From contig UVIF01000021.1 of NCBI GenBank assembly GCA_900596015.1, positions 124,001 through 188,000 of the forward strand: a stretch of 64,000 nt of DNA. The letters are read 5' to 3'. The notes below the pieces were generated by a model. That model was not told the DNA's origin. It did no database searches and worked only from the letters and a program-made list of their open reading frames with translations. How positions within the stretch are numbered: the stretch's first letter is position 1; the number at the start of each line of letters is the position of its first letter. A program made the position numbers and the translations under genes. Below are positions 6,573 through 22,887 of this stretch, in pieces. This DNA comes from Pseudomonas viridiflava. Lineage in GTDB: Bacteria; Pseudomonadota; Gammaproteobacteria; Pseudomonadales; Pseudomonadaceae.

Positions 6573-7655
6573 TCAACCGGCCAATCGGTGTGTCGTTGGC
6601 ACGTGGACATTGCCTGAGAACAATCGACGGGCCGTTCTCACGACCGAGGCTCGAACGGTACCGGCGTCGTGGCCGACGTAGGACAGGCTGACTTCGATGG
6701 CGCCGCTGGGGTGTTCGATCTTCACCGTGTTCAGGCGCTTCTGGTGGCGCTGGCCCAGCATCCGCTCCAGCACGGTCCCGTCGGTGACACAGGCGGTTGC
6801 CAGTCCGATCGAGCCGGTAATGGCCAGTGCCGTGTGGCAATTATGCGGCATGAAGTAGCGCACTTGCAGCGTGCCGCCGGCCTGGGGCGGGGCTACCAGC
6901 ACAGGCTTGGGGATGACCTTGTCGGTTACATCGCCCAGGCCCATCAACAGGCCGGCACGCAGGCGCAACGCTTCCAGGGTGCGAAGGAATCTGGGGTCGG
7001 CGTCGAGTTCGGCCGGGCTTTCATTGCCGGTCTTGCCCAGCTGTGTCGCTTCGACGAGCATCATCGGCATGGCCATGTCGATGCAGGTCACGGGGACATC
7101 GCCCAGCCAGTCCACGGTGGCACCGGTGGGAAACAGCTTGCCAGTCTTGCTGCCCGCTGCGTCGAGAAAGGTCAGCCCCACCGGGGCGGCAGTGCCGGGT
7201 ACGCCGTCGATCGCGGTATCGCCTTCGTAGGTGACCTTGCCGTCGGGCGTGCACACATCGGCGCAGATGAACGTGCCGGTATTGAGGTTGCGGATGCGCA
7301 CCTGAGTCACCCCCGACTGTGCCTGGACAAGGCCCTGATCGATGGCGAACGGGCCGACTGCGCAGAGCATGTTGCCGCAGTTGGGCGCGGTGTCCACACG
7401 TCGTTGCGAAACCATCACCTGGACGAACAGGTAGTCCACGTCCGCGTCCGGGTGATCGGAGCGAGAGACGATGGCCACCTTGCTGGTCTGTGGGCTGCCG
7501 CCGCCAATGCCATCGATCTCCAGCTCGTGCCCGGAGCCCATTGCATCCAGCAGCATCTCATCGCGCTCGGCCGATCTTGCCGGTAAATCGGAGGCCAGAA
7601 ACACTGGTCCTTTGGAGGTCCCGCCACGCATCAGTACGCAAGGAATCAGTTGCAT
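6573..7655 (-). CDS. PrpF-superfamily isomerase (GalD / 4-oxalomesaconate tautomerase-like)
   Basis: The 360-residue protein opens with the PrpF/GalD signature IPCVLMRGGTSKGPVFL and carries IDGIGGGSPQTSKVAIV, PNCGNMLCAVGPFA and a second-half MPHNCHTALAITG. It is a cofactor-free isomerase of the diaminopimelate-epimerase fold. Relatives tautomerise 4-oxalomesaconate (GalD, gallate pathway) or isomerise methylaconitate and aconitate (PrpF). The rest of the gallate pathway (galA, galB, galC) is not in the window. The neighbours are instead a CitMHS carrier and a porin, which points toward an aconitate-type substrate. It is the first gene of the leftward operon and is divergent from a LysR regulator. 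Confidence 0.88.
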   Translation of the reverse strand: MQLIPCVLMRGGTSKGPVFLASDLPARSAERDEMLLDAMGSGHELEIDGIGGGSPQTSKVAIVSRSDHPDADVDYLFVQVMVSQRRVDTAPNCGNMLCAVGPFAIDQGLVQAQSGVTQVRIRNLNTGTFICADVCTPDGKVTYEGDTAIDGVPGTAAPVGLTFLDAAGSKTGKLFPTGATVDWLGDVPVTCIDMAMPMMLVEATQLGKTGNESPAELDADPRFLRTLEALRLRAGLLMGLGDVTDKVIPKPVLVAPPQAGGTLQVRYFMPHNCHTALAITGSIGLATACVTDGTVLERMLGQRHQKRLNTVKIEHPSGAIEVSLSYVGHDAGTVRASVVRTARRLFSGNVHVPTTHRLAG

Positions 7656-11747: not shown

Positions 11748-12539
11748 CTAGAACTGGTACTTCACCAACAAACTCGCCGTGTTCTGGTCGGTGGTAAAAG
11801 AGCCGTCATCCTTGATGCCATATTTGTCTGACCAGTAATCGTATTCCACACCCACATACAGATGCTTGGCTTCATAGCCCAGGCTTTTGCCCAGGTCATA
11901 CTTGATCTGCGGGTTGAAGTGCAGGTTGGCGTGGTAGTCGGACTGGTTGCTGCCGTGGCCGCTCTTGTTGTTCACCACCCAGTCGATGAAACCGTCGATC
12001 AGCAGGTTCGAGTTGCCCAGCGGCAGGGTGTAGGACCAGGCAGGAGTAATCTGCCAGGCACCGGAAGGCACGCGGTTGCCGTCGGGTTTGCGGTAGTAGA
12101 AATTCAGCTGGAAATAGTCGAAGCCGGGAATGGCCAGATCGAAGCCCGGACCTATCAGGTAGGCGTCGACGTCGTCATCGCCGAACTCGTAGGTGGTGGC
12201 GAGCAATATGTCTTTCACCGGCCCGAACGAGAGGTCCTGGCCCAGCAGCTTGCCGGCGCTGAAGCGCGGGCTGAACTCGCCATACAAACTGTAATTGCCG
12301 TTGCCGGACCGGGCGCCGTTATACCAACTGTTATCGACGAAGGCGAACAGATCGCCCCACGTCCATGCGCTGGCATGTTCCAGCGTGATGGTTTGCTGGA
12401 TGGCCGGATCGACATTGTAATTCTTGCCGTACAGATACGACACACTTTCGCCATGCCACAACAATGGTCCTTGCGCATGTGCGGCACCTGCCCCCAGCAG
12501 ACCCAACATGCACAGTGATGCTCCCCAAGCGTTCTTCAT
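11748..12539 (-). CDS. Tsx/OmpK-family nucleoside channel, outer membrane
   Basis: The 263-residue protein has a signal peptide (cleavage after AAHA) and a 12-strand-type barrel with Tsx/OmpK landmarks: WHGESVSYLYGKNYNVDP, SAWTWGDLFAFVDNSWYNG, YGEFSPRFSAGKLLG and an aromatic C-terminus, LLVKYQF. Tsx proteins let nucleosides cross the outer membrane. It lies 180 bases after the ydfG-like gene on the same strand. That makes it the likely outer-membrane partner of the BMP-type ABC importer, either at the end of the same operon or from its own promoter. Confidence 0.88.
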   Translation of the reverse strand: MKNAWGASLCMLGLLGAGAAHAQGPLLWHGESVSYLYGKNYNVDPAIQQTITLEHASAWTWGDLFAFVDNSWYNGARSGNGNYSLYGEFSPRFSAGKLLGQDLSFGPVKDILLATTYEFGDDDVDAYLIGPGFDLAIPGFDYFQLNFYYRKPDGNRVPSGAWQITPAWSYTLPLGNSNLLIDGFIDWVVNNKSGHGSNQSDYHANLHFNPQIKYDLGKSLGYEAKHLYVGVEYDYWSDKYGIKDDGSFTTDQNTASLLVKYQF

Positions 12540-12719: not shown

Positions 12720-14432
<1,713 letters not shown>

Positions 14433-14433
<1 letters not shown>

Positions 14434-15545
14434 CACTGTTCTCCTGTCTGGATGCGCCGCAAACGGTGGCGTATGAAGAAGTCCGACGAGGCCACGCAGA
14501 TCACCAGGATGGCCTGGATCAACTGCACCATCGAAAAGGGGATCTGGTAGAACACCTGCAGGTTGCGCCCGGCGACGAACAGCATCGCCACCACGAGCGC
14601 GACCACGGCGGCCGCGAACGGGTTGTTGCGGGCCAGAAACGCGATGAGGATTCCGGAGAAGCCATAGCCCTGATAGAACGACTGGGTCAACCGACCTTCC
14701 TGGCCTGCGCTGACGATGAAGCCTGCCACCCCGGCCAGAGCGCCGGAGAGCAACACGGTGCTGAGGATCATTCGCCGCACGGGGACGCCGACCGCGCTGG
14801 CGACCTTGGGGTTGGCATCGACGAAGCGCAGGTACAGTCCGGCGCGCGATACGCTGATGAACCACACGGCCAGGGCCATGATGACCAGGGCGATGACGAT
14901 CGCCACGTTGTAGCCGGCGAACAGGTCCGGCAGGCGTTCGAACGGCTGGAAGGCCGGTGAGTAGGGAAAGTTGTCGCGTGGATCTTTCCAACTGCCGTAG
15001 AGCAGGTGCAGCAGAAAGTTGGCGGCGATGTAGTTGAGCATCAGGGTCGAGATCACTTCGTTGACCTTCAGGCGCAACTTCAGCAGAACCGGGGCCAGGG
15101 TCCAGAGCATCGCGCAGGCGATGGCCGCTGCCATCATCAAGGGCAGGCGCAACGCTTCGGGGCCGACCTGGAAGATCGTGACGGCCGCGGCGCCAATGCC
15201 ACCCCAGATCATCTGGCCTTCCAGGCCCAGGTTCCAGAAGCGCGCGCGAAACGCCAGACAACCGGCCATGCCGACCAGAATCATCGGCGCCGCCTGGAAC
15301 AGCACGGCCTTGAAGTTGCCGGCATCGAGCAGCGTCTGGCCGACGAACTCTTCCAGCAGTTGATCGGCCGGCACGCCTGCTGCCACCAGAATGGCCGTGC
15401 TCAAGGCCAGGCCGACGATCACCGCGAGGCCGATCACCAGGGCCTGGCCGCTCCAGCCCATCTGCTGACGCAGCTCCAGGGTGTAGCGTCTGCCGAGCAG
15501 GGGTTGGCGTTGCGCCTTGATCAGGGGTTGGGAGAGTTCAGTCAT
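14433..15545 (-). CDS. Nucleoside-type ABC transporter permease (first)
   Basis: The 370-residue membrane protein has a 40-residue cytoplasmic start, then helices that include AGCLAFRARFWNLGLEGQM, a motif typical of the larger permease of BMP-type importers. It overlaps the ATPase gene by 8 bases (ATGACTGA) upstream and the second permease by 1 base downstream. Such tight packing is usual for a stoichiometric membrane complex. The substrate is inferred from the rutR/rut context and the Tsx channel, and was not read from residues. Confidence 0.9.
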
Positions 15546-17052
15546 GGCTTACCATCGCTTTGCCAATGGCCTGGCGGTCTGCCGGGCAGTCGAATTCGGC
15601 GACGATGCGGCCGCCATTCATCACACCGATGCGATCGGCCAAGGCCATGACCTCGTCAAGGTCTTCGCTGATCACCAGCACGGCTGCCCCGGCGTCACGC
15701 GCGGCGCGCAGGCGTGCATGCACCGCCTGGCTCGCGCGCACGTCCAGGCCACGGCTGGGGCTGTGCACCAGGATCAGTCGCGGATCACGGCTGAACTCGC
15801 GCGCGATCACCAACTTCTGGGCATTGCCGCCCGACAGCAGCGCCGCTTTCTGCTGCAGTGAGCGCACACCCTGCACATCGAAATCGGCCACGGCCTGGGC
15901 GGCATCTTCCAGCAGGCGTTGACCGCGCAAGCGCAGGAAGGAGCCGTAGCGCCCATCGTGCAATTGGCCGATGGCGAAGTTTTCCGCTACCGAGAGCGAG
16001 CCGGCCAGCGCGGCGCCGTATCGATCGGCAGGGATGGCGGCGATGCGCAGGGCCCGACGCTGTGCGGCGCTGGCGTTGCGCAGGTCGCCGAAGGGCTGCA
16101 GATGGATATCCCCTTCGGTGGGCTGTTCAAGGCCCATCAGGGCATTGGCCAACTCGCCCTGGCCATTGCCACCGACGCCGGCAATGCCGTAGATCTGCCC
16201 GGCACAGAGTGTCAGGTCGACGCCTCGCAGCGCGCCGGTGCCCGCCACGCTGGTGAGGTTCCTGACCCGCAGCAGCGGCTCGCCAGGCGTTGCCGGCAGG
16301 GCCGCGCCTTGGGGAGTCGACTCGCCCACCGTCAAGCGCACCAGTTCTTCGATGCTGACGCCCTGTGGGTCCAGGGTTTTTATCGTGCGACCGCCGCGCA
16401 TGACCGTAACCCGGTCGGCATAGCGTTTCACATCGGCCATTTTGTGCGTGACCAGCACCACGGCGGCGCCCTGGCGGGCAAAGGACTGCACGGTGCTCAA
16501 CAAGCGCTCTGCTTCCTGGTCGGTGAGCACGGCGGTCGGCTCATCGAGAATCAGGATGCGCGCGCCGGCCAGCAGCACCTTGAGGATTTCCACGCGTTGC
16601 TGCTCGGCCACCGACAGGGTGTCTACCACTTGGCGCGGATCGAGGACGAAGCCCAGTTCCTCGGCCTTGCTGGCGATGGTCTGCTCAAGCGCTGCAAGCC
16701 GCTTGCGATAGCTGCCTTCGCCCGGTTGCTCGGGCAGGGCCAGCAGGATGTTCTGCGCCACGGTGAAGGGGCGCACCAGTTTGAAGTGCTGGTGAACCAT
16801 GCCGATGCGGTGCCGGCTGGCATCCTTCGGGCTGTTCAGCCGCACGCTGTTATCGTCGATCAGCACGCTGCCGGTTTCCGGTGCGTACAGGCCTGCGGCA
16901 ATGTTCATCAGGGACGACTTGCCTGCGCCGTTCTCGCCGAGCAGGGCATGCACCTCGCCCCAGCGTGCGCTGAAGTCGGCTTCGCTGAGCGCCTTGAAAC
17001 CGTCGAACGATTTGCTGATACCAGTGAGTTGTAGCGCGTTGGCCTGGCTCAT
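15538..17052 (-). CDS. Nucleoside-type ABC transporter ATPase with two nucleotide-binding domains
   Basis: The 504-residue protein holds two ABC domains in tandem. The first has Walker A GENGAGKSS, signature LSVAEQQRVEILK and Walker B ILILDEPTA. The second has a degenerate Walker A (GVGGNGQGE) and signature LLSGGNAQKLV. This asymmetry is typical of the ATPases of BMP/nucleoside and sugar importers. I choose the ATG at 17052 (MSQANALQLTGISKSFDG), which overlaps the stop of the BMP gene as ATGA; a further upstream start would run 14 codons into that gene. Confidence 0.92.
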   Translation of the reverse strand: MSQANALQLTGISKSFDGFKALSEADFSARWGEVHALLGENGAGKSSLMNIAAGLYAPETGSVLIDDNSVRLNSPKDASRHRIGMVHQHFKLVRPFTVAQNILLALPEQPGEGSYRKRLAALEQTIASKAEELGFVLDPRQVVDTLSVAEQQRVEILKVLLAGARILILDEPTAVLTDQEAERLLSTVQSFARQGAAVVLVTHKMADVKRYADRVTVMRGGRTIKTLDPQGVSIEELVRLTVGESTPQGAALPATPGEPLLRVRNLTSVAGTGALRGVDLTLCAGQIYGIAGVGGNGQGELANALMGLEQPTEGDIHLQPFGDLRNASAAQRRALRIAAIPADRYGAALAGSLSVAENFAIGQLHDGRYGSFLRLRGQRLLEDAAQAVADFDVQGVRSLQQKAALLSGGNAQKLVIAREFSRDPRLILVHSPSRGLDVRASQAVHARLRAARDAGAAVLVISEDLDEVMALADRIGVMNGGRIVAEFDCPADRQAIGKAMVSHD

Positions 17053-18140
17053 TTCTGGGTCATCACGCCTTTGACGAACCAGTCCATTTTCCACAGGTCC
17101 GGATCGCTCATGACCTGGTCCGCAGCAAGCCGCTGTTGGCCATCGCGGTCGGACATCGGGCCTTTGTAGAGGGTTTTTGTGCCTGCCAGCAGTTCAGCCC
17201 GGGCCGCTTCGATCTTCGCCCGATTCTCGGGGCTGATCGCGGCGTCCTTGGTCAGGCTGATATCGGTGCCGCCCTGCTGCATCGACAGCAACGCGCCGTT
17301 GGCCTCGGGTACCCAGTTGCCCGCCATGATTTTCTTGATTTCAGGCGTCAGGAAGCGATCCCACACCCACATCGACGAGCACACCGTGGCTTTGGGCGCG
17401 AACTCGCTCAGGTCTCGATGATGACCGGTGCCATGAATACCGCGCTCTTGCGCCACGATCTGCGGAGTAGGGCTGTCGACATGCTGGCCGATCACGTCGA
17501 TGCCGTTGTCGATCAGCGCCATGGTCGCGGCGCGCTCTTTCACCGGGTCGTTCCACGCACCGGTGTAGAGGACGGTAACCGTGGCAGCGGGATTGATTTG
17601 CTGAGCGCCCAGTTCGTACGCGTTGATGGTCCAGTTGACCTGGCCGAAGGGGTTGGCGGCAACGAAGCCCAGCTTGCCTGATTTCGACGCTGCCCCAGCC
17701 GCCATGCCGCACAGGTACTGGCTTTCGTAGGTGCGGCCGTAGAAGGATTCGAGATTGGCGGCGTTGGTGGTGCCCGAACCATTGAGGAAGGCTACCTCGG
17801 GGTACTTCTTCGCCAGCGCCAGGAAGGTGTCGGAGTAACCGAATGCGGTGCCGATGATGATGTTGGCGCCGCGAGCGATCAGGCGGTCGACCACCGGGGT
17901 GACCGCCGCAGCGTTTTCGGGGACGCTTTCGACGTACTGGATTTTCTGATCCAGGCTTTTTTCGAGCTTGATGCGGGCTTCGTCGAAGGCCTGGGTCCAG
18001 CCACCGTCGTTGCGCGGGCTGATGTAGACCATGGCGATCTTGGCCGGGCCCTTGAGGGTGAGGCCCTCGGCGTATGCGGCACTCCCTGTCCCGTAGGCCG
18101 AAGCGGCGAGCAACATTCCTGGCAGCAGTGTCTTGAGCAT
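17049..18140 (-). CDS. BMP-family (PnrA/Med-like) substrate-binding protein of the ABC importer
   Basis: The 363-residue protein has a signal peptide ending near SAAYA-EG and the BMP fold motifs IAMVYISPRNDGGWTQAFDEAR and ANIIIGTAFGYSDTFLALAKKYPEVAFLN. BMP proteins such as PnrA bind purine or pyrimidine nucleosides in the periplasm, and Pseudomonas relatives may prefer pyrimidine bases. It is the first gene of the leftward operon BMP-ATPase-permease-permease-ydfG. It is preceded by a strong sigma-54 promoter (18224-18239) and by RutR-type and NtrC-type sites further upstream, so it is probably switched on by nitrogen limitation and by pyrimidines. Confidence 0.93.
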   Translation of the reverse strand: MLKTLLPGMLLAASAYGTGSAAYAEGLTLKGPAKIAMVYISPRNDGGWTQAFDEARIKLEKSLDQKIQYVESVPENAAAVTPVVDRLIARGANIIIGTAFGYSDTFLALAKKYPEVAFLNGSGTTNAANLESFYGRTYESQYLCGMAAGAASKSGKLGFVAANPFGQVNWTINAYELGAQQINPAATVTVLYTGAWNDPVKERAATMALIDNGIDVIGQHVDSPTPQIVAQERGIHGTGHHRDLSEFAPKATVCSSMWVWDRFLTPEIKKIMAGNWVPEANGALLSMQQGGTDISLTKDAAISPENRAKIEAARAELLAGTKTLYKGPMSDRDGQQRLAADQVMSDPDLWKMDWFVKGVMTQK

Positions 18141-18223: not shown

Positions 18224-18239
18224 AGCAGCATCCGTGCCA
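18224..18239 (-). promoter_or_regulatory. Sigma-54 promoter of the BMP transporter operon
   Basis: On the reverse strand TGGCACGGATGCTGCT has GG (-24) and GC (-12) at the exact sigma-54 spacing, and nearly matches the consensus TGGCACG-N4-TTGCT. The start of transcription would fall near 18213, some 70 bases before the BMP start codon. An NtrC-type activator site lies about 80 bases upstream. Confidence 0.75.
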
Positions 18240-18293
18240 TATCAGAAAAACGCTTTTGAAACAGTGATTTGAGTTATTGCTAAGGCTTAATTC

Positions 18294-18307
18294 AGATCAT
18301 CTGGTCC
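18294..18307 (-). promoter_or_regulatory. RutR-type operator, transporter side
   Basis: On the reverse strand GGACCAGATGATCT fits the RutR pattern (known core GACCA-NN-TGGTC) with one arm exact and the other weaker. It joins directly to the 30-bp block shared with the rutA promoter, and lies between the NtrC-type site and the sigma-54 promoter of the BMP operon. Confidence 0.6.
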
Positions 18308-18331
18308 GAAGTAGAGCACTTGGTTTGTGCG
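18302..18331 (-). repeat. 30-bp regulatory block, copy facing the transporter operon
   Basis: These 30 bases are the exact reverse complement of 19186-19215 on the other side of rutR. The block contains an NtrC-type site and half of a RutR-type operator and points toward the BMP gene, just as the other copy points toward rutA. Confidence 0.9.
18316..18330 (-). promoter_or_regulatory. NtrC-type enhancer site, transporter side
   Basis: GCACTTGGTTTGTGC (GCAC-N7-GTGC) has the arm sequence and spacing of the enterobacterial NtrC site TGCAC-N7-GTGCA. It is about 80 bases upstream of the sigma-54 promoter at 18224-18239, a usual distance for an enhancer. Confidence 0.6.
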
Positions 18332-18352
18332 CCCGGCACGATTACAGGGCGT

Positions 18353-19075
18353 TCAGTTCGCTCTGGGTCGCACGCCATCGAGTATCAACCCGCGCAACCC
18401 CACCAGGACCTCTTCGAAGAACACCGGATCGTGCAGGGTCTTGCCGGTCACGGCCTCCACCTGGGTGCGGAAGTCGGCGTAATGCTGGGTGGTCGCCCAC
18501 AGCGAAAAGATGAAGTGGTGCGGGTTGACCGGCGCCAGTTGGCCCGTTGCGATCCAGTGCTCGATCACCGCGACCTTGGTGTCGACGGTTTCGCGCAGGG
18601 GCTGCTGCAGTTCACTGAGCATCAGCGGGGCGCCCTGCATGATCTCCATGCAGAACAAACGCGATTCCGCCGCGTGGTCACGGGAAAGTTCGAGCTTGGC
18701 TTTTATATAGGCACCGATGGCTTCTACCGGGTTCTTGTCGGCAGTGAAGTACTGCAGGGGGCTCAGCCAGACCTCCAGCAACTGCCTGAGCACGCTCAGG
18801 TAAAGGTCGTCCTTGCTGGAAAAGTAGTACAGCAGATTGGTCTTGGACACATCGGCCCGGGTGGCCACCTGATCGAGACTGCTGCCGTGCAGGCCATAGC
18901 GCGAGAACACATCCAGTGCGGCGCCCAGTATCGCGGTGCGCTTGCTTTCCATCAGTTGCAGCCGGCGCTTGAGTGCCGCGGCGCTGGGCTCTCGGGTCGC
19001 CTTGACCACAGGCTTGGGCTTGACGTTGCGCGCGCGCTTGGCACGGGGCTCATTGACGGGTGGCTGTTCTTTCAC
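18353..19075 (-). CDS. rutR: RutR, TetR-family regulator of pyrimidine utilisation
   Basis: The 240-residue protein matches E. coli RutR over its length: the helix-turn-helix (SRYGLHGSSLDQVATRADVSKTNLLYYFSSKDDLY), the ligand domain block SRLFCMEIMQGAPLMLSELQQPL, and the ending FSLWATTQHYADFRTQVEAVTG. RutR binds DNA as a dimer and lets go when uracil or thymine binds. I propose the GTG at 19075 as the start (VKEQPPVNEPRAKRAR). The open frame runs up to 19246, but that would place coding sequence across the NtrC and RutR sites. The gene lies between the two operons it likely controls. Confidence 0.88.
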   Translation of the reverse strand: MKEQPPVNEPRAKRARNVKPKPVVKATREPSAAALKRRLQLMESKRTAILGAALDVFSRYGLHGSSLDQVATRADVSKTNLLYYFSSKDDLYLSVLRQLLEVWLSPLQYFTADKNPVEAIGAYIKAKLELSRDHAAESRLFCMEIMQGAPLMLSELQQPLRETVDTKVAVIEHWIATGQLAPVNPHHFIFSLWATTQHYADFRTQVEAVTGKTLHDPVFFEEVLVGLRGLILDGVRPRAN

Positions 19076-19185
19076 GCGACTGGAACCTGCAGCTGGATGT
19101 AGACGGCCATGATAACGGGCGAATGTCTGCCGACGATACAGGCAGGGGAGCAGCGTGCATCGTTTTGCACCGGCAGCCGGAGAAA

Positions 19186-19215
19186 CGCACAAACCAAGTG
19201 CTCTACTTCGGACCA
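19186..19215 (+). repeat. 30-bp regulatory block, copy facing rutA
   Basis: This stretch is an exact 30-base inverted copy of 18302-18331. It starts at the NtrC-type site and ends inside the RutR-type palindrome. Because the two flanking operons are divergent, both copies stand in the same orientation relative to the genes they serve. Confidence 0.9.
19187..19201 (+). promoter_or_regulatory. NtrC-type enhancer site, rutA side
   Basis: GCACAAACCAAGTGC is a GCAC-N7-GTGC dyad like the NtrC consensus. It lies about 77 bases upstream of the sigma-54 promoter at 19278-19293. In E. coli the rut operon is known to be under NtrC control, which supports the reading. Confidence 0.6.
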
Positions 19216-19223
19216 ATTGGTCC
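19210..19223 (+). promoter_or_regulatory. RutR-type operator, rutA side
   Basis: GGACCAATTGGTCC is a perfect 14-base palindrome that fits the E. coli RutR core GACCA-NN-TGGTC exactly. It begins 8 bases after the NtrC-type site and lies upstream of the sigma-54 promoter of rutA. Repressor bound here could block NtrC or DNA looping. Confidence 0.75.
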
Positions 19224-19277
19224 ACAAGACTGCCAATTTTATTCATAACTTCATGAAAGATATAACTTAATCAAACA

Positions 19278-19293
19278 TGGCCCGATCCCTGCT
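19278..19293 (+). promoter_or_regulatory. Sigma-54 promoter of the rut operon
   Basis: TGGCCCGATCCCTGCT has GG (-24) and GC (-12) at sigma-54 spacing and matches TGGCACG-N4-TTGCT apart from two positions. Transcription would start near 19304, about 50 bases before rutA. Confidence 0.7.
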
Positions 19294-19355: not shown

Positions 19356-20437
<1,082 letters not shown>

Positions 20438-20438
<1 letters not shown>

Positions 20439-21178
20439 TGAATACGCCCGTGAACGTTTCCGGCGTGTCCCTGCCGCTGGACCCGCACCCTGCCCGTGAA
20501 CTGCCTGCACGCCCCGAAGCGCTGCGCATGAGAGCCAGTGAAACCGCGCTGGTGGTGGTCGACATGCAGAACGCCTACGCCACGCTGGGTGGCTACCTGG
20601 ACCTGGCCGGCTTCGATGTGTCGAGCACGGGGCCGGTGATCGCCGCCATTCAGCGATCCATTTCAGCGGCCCGCGCCGCTGGCATCCCGGTGATTTTCTT
20701 CCAGAACGGCTGGGACCCGGCCTACGTCGAGGCCGGCGGGCCCGGCTCGCCCAACTGGCACAAGTCCAATGCGCTGAAAACCATGCGCAAGCGCCCCGAG
20801 CTGCAAGGCCAGCTGCTGGCCAAGGGCGGTTGGGACTATGCCCTGGTCGACGAGCTCAAGCCCCAGCCGGGCGATATCGTGGTTGCGAAGACCCGTTACA
20901 GCGGCTTCTTCAACTCCACGTTCGACAGCACGCTGCGCGCGCGCGGTATCCGCAATCTGGTGTTCACCGGTATTGCCACCAACGTATGCGTCGAGTCGAC
21001 CCTGCGCGACGGCTTCCATCTGGAGTATTTCGGTGTGGTGCTGGCCGATGCCACCCACCAGGCCGGGCCGGCATTCGCGCAGCAGGCAGCGTTGTTCAAC
21101 ATCGAAACCTTCTTTGGCTGGGTCTCCAGCGTCGATGACTTCTGCACCACCTTCGCCCCTGTCGGGCAACCCTCCTGA
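20438..21178 (+). CDS. rutB: RutB, ureidoacrylate amidohydrolase
   Basis: The 246-residue isochorismatase-like hydrolase releases CO2 and ammonia from ureidoacrylate to give aminoacrylate. The catalytic triad is visible as Asp in [10 protein letters not shown], Lys in [11 protein letters not shown] and Cys in [11 protein letters not shown]. The ATG at 20438 shares its A with the stop of rutA (TGATG), which fixes the start; a longer open frame to 20270 lies inside rutA. Size and motifs match E. coli RutB. Confidence 0.96.
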
Positions 21179-21188
21179 GGACGCACAG

Positions 21189-21572
21189 ATGACCAAGCAA
21201 TCGATTATCCCTGCAGGCACCGGCAAGCCCCTGGCGCCGTTCGTTCCAGGCTCCCTGGCCGATGGCGTGCTGTACGTGTCCGGCACCCTGCCGTTCGACA
21301 AGGACAACAACGTGGTGCACGTCGGTGACGCGGCAGCGCAGACCCGTCACGTGCTGGAGACCATCAAGGGTGTGGTGGAAACGGCCGGCGGTAACCTGGA
21401 TGACGTGACCTTCAACATGATCATGATCCGCGACTGGGCCGACTACCCCAAGGTCAACGAGGTGTACGCCGAGTACTTTGCCGGCGAGAAGCCTGCGCGC
21501 TATTGCATCCAGTGCGGTCTGGTCAAGCCCGATGCGCTGATCGAAATCGCCAGCATCGCGCACATCGGCTGA
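21189..21572 (+). CDS. rutC: RutC, 3-aminoacrylate deaminase (RidA/YjgF family)
   Basis: The 127-residue protein is a small trimeric RidA-fold enzyme that deaminates 3-aminoacrylate toward malonic semialdehyde. Motifs are [21 protein letters not shown] and the substrate-binding Arg in [21 protein letters not shown]. The start is the ATG at 21189, 10 bases after the rutB stop, with GAGGACGC in front. Length equals the E. coli protein to within a residue. Confidence 0.95.
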
Positions 21573-21592
21573 CACTCACTGCGGAGGTTTGC

Positions 21593-22375
21593 ATGTACCA
21601 CGCCATACACGGTCGGCAGGATGCCGACGCACCCACCCTGGTACTGAGTTCGGGGCTCGGCGGTTCGGCCGGGTTCTGGGCTGGTGACCTGGCGCTGCTC
21701 GGCGAGCATTTTCGCGTCGTGACTTACGATCATGCCGGCACCGGGCGCAGCCCTGCGCAACTGCCGGAAGGCTACCGAATCGCGCACATGGCCGAAGAGC
21801 TGCTGGCACTGCTCGATGAACTCGACATCGAACAGTGCCATTTCATGGGCCATGCCCTGGGTGGACTGGTTGGGCTGGAACTGGCAGCGATGTGCCCGGA
21901 GCGGTTGAGCAGCCTGGTGCTGATCAACGCCTGGAGCAGCCCCAATCCACACAGCGCCCGTTGCTTTGCGGTACGCAAGAACCTGCTGCGCCACTGCGGC
22001 TCGCAGGCTTACGTACAGGCGCAGGCGCTGTTCCTGTATCCCGCCGACTGGATCGCCAGCAATGGCGCGCGTCTGGCCGAAGACGAGGCCCATGCTCTGG
22101 CCAATTTTCCCAGCCATGACAACCTGCTGCGGCGGATCAACGCGCTGGAAACCTTCGACATCGAATCGCGGCTGCAGGGCATTCATACGCCCACGCTGCT
22201 GATCGCCAACCGCGACGACATGCTGGTGCCGTGGCAGCGTTCCCGGCACCTGGCCGATCAACTGCCCAACGCCACGCTGGTGGTACTCGAATATGGCGGG
22301 CACGCGTCAAGCGTCAGCGATCCGCAACCCTTCCATCATGCTGTGCTGGACTACTTTCAAGGACTCTCACTATGA
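21593..22375 (+). CDS. rutD: RutD, alpha/beta-hydrolase of the Rut pathway
   Basis: The 260-residue alpha/beta-hydrolase-fold protein speeds the hydrolysis of aminoacrylate and related intermediates. The nucleophile elbow reads GHALGG, with Ala where Ser is normal; E. coli RutD has the same change, so this is a family trait and not damage. [15 protein letters not shown] and [15 protein letters not shown] also match RutD. GCGGAGG lies 9 bases before the ATG at 21593, and the stop overlaps rutF as ATGA. Confidence 0.93.
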
Positions 22376-22887
22376 CCGCGCCTCATTCGCTTCCCGTCGA
22401 GCGTCAAGCCTTCCGTGACGCCATGGCCGGCCTGGCCGCCGCCGTCAACGTCATCACCACCGACGGCCCCCATGGGCGCGCGGGCTTCACTGCCACGGCG
22501 GTGTGCAGCGTGACCGACCAGCCACCGACGCTGCTGGTGTGCATTAATCGCACTGCATCGGTGTACGAGTCGTTCACGGGCAACGGCACGGTGTGTGTCA
22601 ATACGTTGGGAAATGGCCAGCAGGCGCTGTCCAACGCCTTTGGCGGCAAGACGCCCCAGGCGCAGCGCTTCGAGGGTGGCTGCTGGAGCCAGGGGGTCAC
22701 CGGTGCGCCGATACTGGAAGGGGCCAAGCTGTCTTTCGACTGCAAGATCACCAGCAGTACCAGCGTCGGTACCCACGACATTCTGGTGTGCGAAGTGCTG
22801 GATATTCGCCAGCAAAACGAAGCCGATGTACTGGTCTACTTCGCTCGCCGTTACCACGAGCTGGCCGGCACCCAGGCCAGCGCCTGA
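22372..22887 (+). CDS. rutF: RutF, FMN reductase (NADH) for RutA
   Basis: The 171-residue flavin reductase provides reduced FMN to RutA. Typical segments are [43 protein letters not shown] and the C-terminal YFARRYHEL. The ATG at 22372 overlaps the rutD stop. It is the last gene of the operon: in E. coli rutE lies between rutD and rutF and rutG follows, but here both are missing. Confidence 0.95.

Follow-up and report, generated by a model that had tools for sequence, protein, structure and literature searches.

In the usual picture, a repressor of a σ54 promoter either competes for the promoter itself or acts on the activator. In Escherichia coli, where a σ54 site at the rutA promoter has been observed by ChIP-seq (PMC4591121), the absence of RutR left rutA expression unaffected in exponential growth (PMC10891134), which indicates that other control is needed too; RutR is also reported to repress rutR (PMC10891134). 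RutR regulons have been reconstructed across Proteobacteria (PMC5343134), and membership of the importer described below may already have been predicted there. Two further systems bear on the present one. In Pseudomonas sp. ADP, the atzDGEHF and atzRSTUVW operons are both σ54 dependent, induced by nitrogen starvation and governed by one shared specific regulator (PMC6834077). In synthetic NtrC/σ54 enhancers with TetR, LacI or TraR bound in the loop, an in-phase repressor can lower expression, and insertions and deletions have been tested in natural Vibrio qrr enhancers rather than in rut (PMC4740811).

The window, by which we mean the whole 64,000-nucleotide stretch of DNA analysed here, contains a module of the E. 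coli type, with a σ54 −24/−12 element, NtrC-type boxes, a RutR palindrome and an adjoining rutR. The rutR gene (18353..19075, minus strand; start codon uncertain; PRK15008 276.8 bits, cut-off 230) lies between two copies of this module. One copy precedes rutA (19356..20438, plus strand; TIGR03612 700.8 bits, cut-off 498.3), which is followed by rutB, rutC, rutD and rutF (20438..22887, plus strand), all four above their model cut-offs. The other copy, inverted, precedes a minus-strand operon that begins with a BMP-type substrate-binding protein (17049..18140; PF02608), continues with an ATPase and two permeases (13507..17052) and ends with a YdfG-like short-chain dehydrogenase (12720..13478; NF007829 302.4 bits, below the cut-off of 411).

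The stretch 18302-18331 matches the reverse complement of 19186-19215 without a mismatch, as the original prediction had it, and the repeat grows to 37 bp at 92% identity once the flanks are included. Each 30-bp copy joins the expected NtrC-type dyad, GCAC-N7-GTGC, to a RutR-type dyad, GACCA-NN-TG. Specifically, the proximal NtrC-type site of rutA occupies 19187..19201 (plus strand, GCACAAACCAAGTGC) and that of the importer, with the same sequence, 18316..18330 (minus strand). The RutR operator core, which we call O1, is a perfect dyad in front of rutA (19211..19222, plus strand, GACCAATTGGTC) and has one mismatch in front of the importer (18295..18306, minus strand, GACCAGATGATC). The two predicted σ54 promoters, with exact GG-N10-GC spacing, are present at 19278..19293 (plus strand, TGGCCCGATCCCTGCT) for rutABCDF and at 18224..18239 (minus strand, TGGCACGGATGCTGCT) for the importer operon, each starting 67 bp past the start of O1. 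The predicted distance of about 80 bases between block and promoter needs correction: from the end of the block to the start of the promoter 16-mer it is 63 bp, and from the start of the NtrC site 91 bp.

A chance origin of this arrangement was rejected on the basis of copy-number, shuffle and 398-genome controls. A search of the whole genome (4.51 Mb, ≤3 mismatches) finds the 30-bp block at these two places and nowhere else (control, 0 matches), and 40 shuffles of the window yielded no pair of a RutR core (≤1 mismatch) and a σ54 site (≤2 mismatches) at 65-68 bp. The individual elements are not significant singly: GCACN7GTGC was seen 6 times in the window against 4.04 expected, and σ54-like 16-mers (≤2 mismatches) 9 times in its 64 kb. 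A looser pattern of RutR plus GGC-N8-TGC gave 3 matches in this genome against 2 for its control, with only one at rutA. A σ70 scan found no site, and terminator-like sites were near the chance level (13 seen, 8.8 expected).

By hand count, the module was found in 66 of 398 Pseudomonadaceae genomes, about five of which look like chance matches by eye (G117, G1165, G1203, G1139 and G1291), and 32 have at least two copies; the control pattern had 0 matches in the same 398 genomes. Among the 30 loci retrieved, 27 have the module 5′ of rutA, bmp, an oxygenase gene or rutG, the three without such a row being L113, L116 and L125. When 293 genomes of the order were scanned for RutR plus σ54 sites, 15 of them yielded 16 matches in all. 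By tblastn, five of the matches are 5′ of rutA, all 82 nt long, and no rutA was found at the other 11, one of which is also 82 nt long. Conservation next to rutR homologues, the check named in the original prediction, was observed in Pseudomonadaceae and relatives. This conservation, over differing linkers and loops in those 66 genomes, largely refutes the idea that the 30-bp identity merely records a recent duplication or gene conversion flanking rutR with no common function. That idea draws on the 9-bp linker, whose sequence is shared by both copies here and in P. baltica but not by the two copies of L005 or of L006. We regard it as very improbable; conversion may explain the identity of the linker, not the module. 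An inversion of rutR between the inverted copies was also rejected: rutR is divergent from rutA in every compared locus that has both genes.

To describe the geometry, we compared the regions upstream of rutA and of transporter-side genes in the fetched loci and the window, picking the best RutR-like and the best σ54-like site per region independently of spacing. The RutR core was derived from the sites themselves, and σ54 sites were scored with the known consensus string. Alignments starting past residue 15 or with <200 nt upstream were left out beforehand, and L038 and L045, which have rutR without a rutA match, contributed no rutA promoter. Both an O1 and a σ54 match were present in 122 of the 127 upstream regions examined, giving 62 non-redundant loop clusters at 75% identity. 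The five regions without the motif pair are E. coli rutG, the bmp genes of L046 and L054 (where the module lies 5′ of an oxygenase gene instead), L066, and the rutA of L088, a distant RutA locus of a seventh family in which none of the motifs was found. Three rows (L057 rutA; L046 and L054 oxygenase) were shifted by 19 bp onto O1, the initial pick having been O2, a second RutR-like element described below, or an upstream site with a tied score.

The 122 promoters come from six families (Pseudomonadaceae; f6, f26, f35 and f185 of the same class; and that of E. coli) and share a common anatomy of distal NtrC slot, proximal NtrC slot, O1, IHF-like site and σ54 promoter. The distance from the start of O1 to the start of the promoter is 65-67 bp in 58 of the 62 clusters (67 in 37, 66 in 14 and 65 in 7), with 68, 69, 55 and 78 bp once each; the far exceptions, 55 and 78, are about one helical turn off, and the 65-69 bp range itself spans almost half a turn. 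Its standard deviation is 2.2 bp, compared with 20.2 bp for the distance from promoter to ATG, which ranges from 50 to 144 bp; the spacing statistics are not independent, since the promoters are related by descent. Loops of equal length have a mean identity of 0.397, against 0.283 when shuffled, indicating a conserved length over a drifting sequence. A requirement of NtrC looping alone could explain the fixed spacing.

The transporter-side copies follow the same rule: in 17 of 17 clusters O1 and the promoter are 65-67 bp apart, a figure that for two of them includes the 19-bp shift from O2 to O1. This matters for the possibility that O1 serves mainly the autoregulation of the divergent rutR, its proximity to the enhancer being incidental. 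The rutA copy does sit in the rutR-rutA intergenic region, and the reported repression of rutR by E. coli RutR would fit such a role, but the importer, oxygenase and rutG copies keep the distance, and on the other side of the importer copy in the window lies the rutR 3′ end alone. We therefore consider autoregulation unlikely as the main role of O1, and reject it as the sole one on account of the transporter copies.

What stands behind the module on this side varies. Where rutG replaces the importer beside rutR (L058, L060 and L065), rutG has its own module, which suggests that the module goes with the transporter role and not with one gene lineage. In Stutzerimonas, Pseudomonas and further Pseudomonadaceae, some loci have it 5′ of a 2OG-Fe(II) oxygenase gene, which in L046 and L054 is followed by the BMP importer; these copies hint at an additional pyrimidine- or purine-modifying step. 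The oxygenase gene behind the module in L053 (11527-12606) is of the DIOX_N/2OG-Fe(II) type, and in L046 an isochorismatase-like ORF (6745-7401; recognised by eye) lies immediately 3′ of rutR.

The transporter-side operators are also the weaker ones. In O1, all 7 BMP clusters have TGATC, all 7 oxygenase clusters have either TGATC or CGATC, and all 3 rutG clusters have AGGTC. Within genomes, the transporter O1 has more mismatches than the rutA O1 in 27 of 30 pairs, an equal number in 3 and never fewer; at least 4 of the 30 pairs repeat one genome (window/L119, L005/L123, L012/L121, L015/L059), and without repeated genomes the asymmetry remains solid, at 23 of 26 pairs with 3 equal.

Upstream of O1, 44 of the 62 clusters have a proximal NtrC dyad that begins 24 bp before it and retains 7 or all 8 of the core bases; 16 have no proximal NtrC site, and two with an intermediate score were placed in neither group. 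The distal slot, which begins 44 bp before O1, is looser: 6 or more of its 8 bases are present in 26 of the 44 promoters with a proximal NtrC site and in 8 of the 16 without. In the window, the distal slot of rutA (19167..19181, plus strand) retains the GCAC half alone, and that of the importer (18336..18350, minus strand, GCCCTGTAATCGTGC) is nearly complete. Nine rutA clusters from Pseudomonas lack the proximal NtrC site; in 7 of these, the transporter of the same locus has an NtrC-type module, which suggests that uptake is the easier switch. Upstream of rutA in three loci of one family (L093-L095), the NtrC region resembles three GCAC half-sites repeated every ~21 bp, with eroded second halves.

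NtrC itself is encoded in the genome (791.9 bits, cut-off 558.6). The pattern of NtrC plus σ54 sites has 4 matches genome-wide, namely the two module copies, a P-II gene that we take to be glnK, and a ureE-headed operon (L142; G000:C11, ~347 kb, in this genome). The activator acting at GCACN7GTGC might instead be another σ54 enhancer-binding protein, given the many further NtrC-like matches in the genome, which lie below the cut-off. We hold this to be quite unlikely: the two remaining pattern sites precede the P-II gene and the ureE-headed operon, albeit with 2 matches for the reversed control pattern as well, and the motif agrees with the NtrC box that PMC8743547 quotes for E. coli.

The least expected result concerns the proximal slot itself. 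A RutR-like 12-mer stands out at one offset alone, exactly 19 bp before O1, and we call it O2. In the window it overlaps the proximal NtrC site of rutA (19192..19203, plus strand, AACCAAGTGCTC; degenerate, 2 mismatches), with a counterpart in the importer copy at 18314..18325 (minus strand); both are putative RutR sites. Where a proximal NtrC site is present, O2 has a mean of 2.52 mismatches in 10, the value over offsets being 7.4; in the 16 promoters that lack such a site, the corresponding values are 3.81 and 7.6. When only the 7 positions set by RutR and not by the NtrC core are counted, proximal NtrC slots match at 5.48 (44 promoters), slots without NtrC at 4.25 (16) and distal NtrC slots at 1.31 (35). 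At the base where NtrC and RutR conflict, the NtrC base C is present in 44 of 44 NtrC-type slots and the RutR base G in 8 of the 16 NtrC-less slots. With a match at 1 of these 7 positions in E. coli, O2 is not a general feature.

The loop between O1 and the promoter is also organised. Its consensus reads YAANNNNTTGATW, in agreement with the IHF consensus that was used for scoring the loops. At 32 bp before the promoter, the mean number of IHF mismatches is 2.21, compared with 5.55 across all offsets, and a match at 0-1 mismatch occurs in 47 of 62 loops, compared with 15.8% of shuffled loops; 36 of these 47 lie 31-33 bp from the promoter, in one orientation. The length exceptions keep this IHF-promoter interval of 31-33 bp, and the one-turn steps of the exceptions (L011 and L013, E. 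coli) fall in the interval from O1 to IHF (24, ~35 and 46 bp). Both IHF-like sites of the window are weak, with 2 mismatches each to the consensus: that of rutA (19246..19258, minus strand; TAACTTCATGAAA on the plus strand) is at a position fixed in relatives, and that of the importer (18259..18271, plus strand; CAAATCACTGTTT on the minus strand) was counted by eye, the best match of the scan in this loop lying elsewhere, likewise with 2 mismatches.

These tightly fixed IHF and promoter positions, together with the absence of O2 from E. coli, would suit a simpler account in which the spacings follow from NtrC-IHF-σ54 geometry alone, with RutR a weak modulator of the ordinary kind and O2 unbound. 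Against it, the RutR-specific bases distinguish proximal from distal NtrC slots and persist where the NtrC site is lost, and O1 is still 65-67 bp from the promoter in the 16 promoters that have no proximal NtrC site. We judge this account rather unlikely.

RutR matches the solved E. coli RutR structure at 4.4e-72, shares 108 of 202 aligned residues with E. coli RutR, is 99.6% identical to the RutR of P. baltica, a near relative of the host, and scores 347.9 bits against TIGR03613, just under the cut-off of 368. A RutR match of at least 57% identity occurs in 18 of 199 genomes of the genus, and rutA is sparse, in 3 of 369 genomes of the class, 9 of 390 of the order and 8 of 147 in the family of G828. 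The Rut pathway of the window, rutABCDF, is incomplete: neither RutE nor RutG has a match within it, and the best RutG match genome-wide reaches 272.1 bits, with a cut-off (758.65) that the E. coli control also missed. These gaps may be filled by the importer and by the YdfG-like dehydrogenase, which has 53% identity with E. coli YdfG, a RutE substitute. A YdfG-like gene is also found 3′ of rutF in L059, L061, L062 and L064, a placement in line with a RutE-like role, though L059 and L064 also have RutE. A gene for a Tsx-like outer-membrane nucleoside channel (11748..12539, minus strand; PF03502 65.8 bits, cut-off 27.2) lies ~180 bp 3′ of the importer operon and may or may not belong to it; in L059 and L064 such a gene also follows the permeases.

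The binding protein of the importer matches AtzT (6pi5) at 1.9e-63 and 3s99 at 2.6e-53. Its nearest solved relatives are AtzT, with guanine and 2-hydroxyatrazine as ligands, and a protein from Brucella that has adenine in its model. Its ligand is likely a nucleobase, and on our reading of the alignment the polar residues of the AtzT pocket seem altered. The operon probably imports pyrimidines, with uracil or thymine suggested as cargo by the genomic context. The single pyrimidine regulon of the original prediction stands as far as the shared NtrC/RutR/σ54 module is concerned, while its import arm is a reading of that context.

Altogether, we propose that two copies of a composite σ54 enhancer join rutABCDF breakdown and the importer into one nitrogen-scavenging regulon. 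Under nitrogen limitation, phosphorylated NtrC would occupy the distal and proximal slots and activate σ54 RNA polymerase through the loop, probably with the help of IHF. RutR without uracil would bind O1, between enhancer and promoter and on approximately the same DNA face as both, and would probably also occupy O2, which is weaker and overlaps the proximal NtrC site. From this arrangement, we infer that RutR blocks the enhancer, by excluding NtrC at O2 and hindering looping at O1, and leaves the promoter unblocked, and that uracil or thymine, also a RutR ligand, frees it. The one-mismatch operator of the importer should open first, so that inducer would enter before the catabolic operon is fully opened.

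The original prediction spoke of a lock next to the enhancer. The RutR operator does adjoin the enhancer, far from the promoter, which makes an enhancer lock the natural reading; the lock itself is our interpretation of the sites. We consider it probable that AND logic governs both operons, with uracil-free RutR acting as a lock on the NtrC enhancer and not on the promoter. A stronger version is conceivable, and we offer it tentatively, as somewhat more doubtful than not: a TetR-family repressor would act on a σ54 promoter by no route other than its enhancer, which it would disable by means of a dual-specificity NtrC/RutR site and an in-phase loop operator, with the locked unit following the transporter role whichever transporter is present and a selected weaker operator opening uptake first. 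The finding is wider than the prediction and includes the IHF-like site, the distal slot, the O2 bases, the weaker transporter operator and the rutG module.

The literature searched, largely open access, yielded no account of the fixed geometry, of O2 overlapping the NtrC site or of the copies at transporters. Across six gammaproteobacterial families, a repressor seems to be kept at a fixed place in the activator loop, with far exceptions about one turn away, as the synthetic-enhancer work predicts (PMC4740811); this would turn an engineered enhancer principle into a testable natural one. The compact motif GCACN7GTGCTC-N7-GACCA further provides a tool for finding pyrimidine importers and linked enzymes.

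The closest comparison is with rutA of E. coli K-12. The original prediction had assumed a different promoter layout there, and this had to be rejected: the order of elements and the 24-bp NtrC-RutR spacing are shared, and the E. coli layout is one turn longer overall. Like the module, E. coli rutA is preceded by a pair of NtrC-like boxes, each with one mismatch and spaced by 21 bp, a RutR core 24 bp after the second box, a divergent rutR and an IHF-like site (1 mismatch) 32 bp before the σ54 promoter. Unlike it, E. coli has an O1-IHF interval longer by one helical turn, an O1 with 2 mismatches, no recognisable O2 and a single module copy, no motif pair being found 5′ of rutG; the single copy follows from the position of rutG within the rut operon. 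The atz system (PMC6834077) resembles rut in its divergent catabolic and ABC importer operons, and AtzT is the closest solved relative of the rut importer's binding protein, whereas the atz regulator is AtzR, not RutR. Finally, the tolerance of 10-11 bp insertions and deletions predicted for synthetic enhancers (PMC4740811) resembles the series of 55, 67 and 78 bp seen here; the term “rut” has 0 occurrences in that paper. Quenching-type repression inside the NtrC-σ54 loop is thereby a candidate mechanism, to which the geometry and these one-turn steps conform. Unlike the synthetic constructs, the rut module is natural and conserved, contains an IHF-like site and has an operator that overlaps the enhancer.
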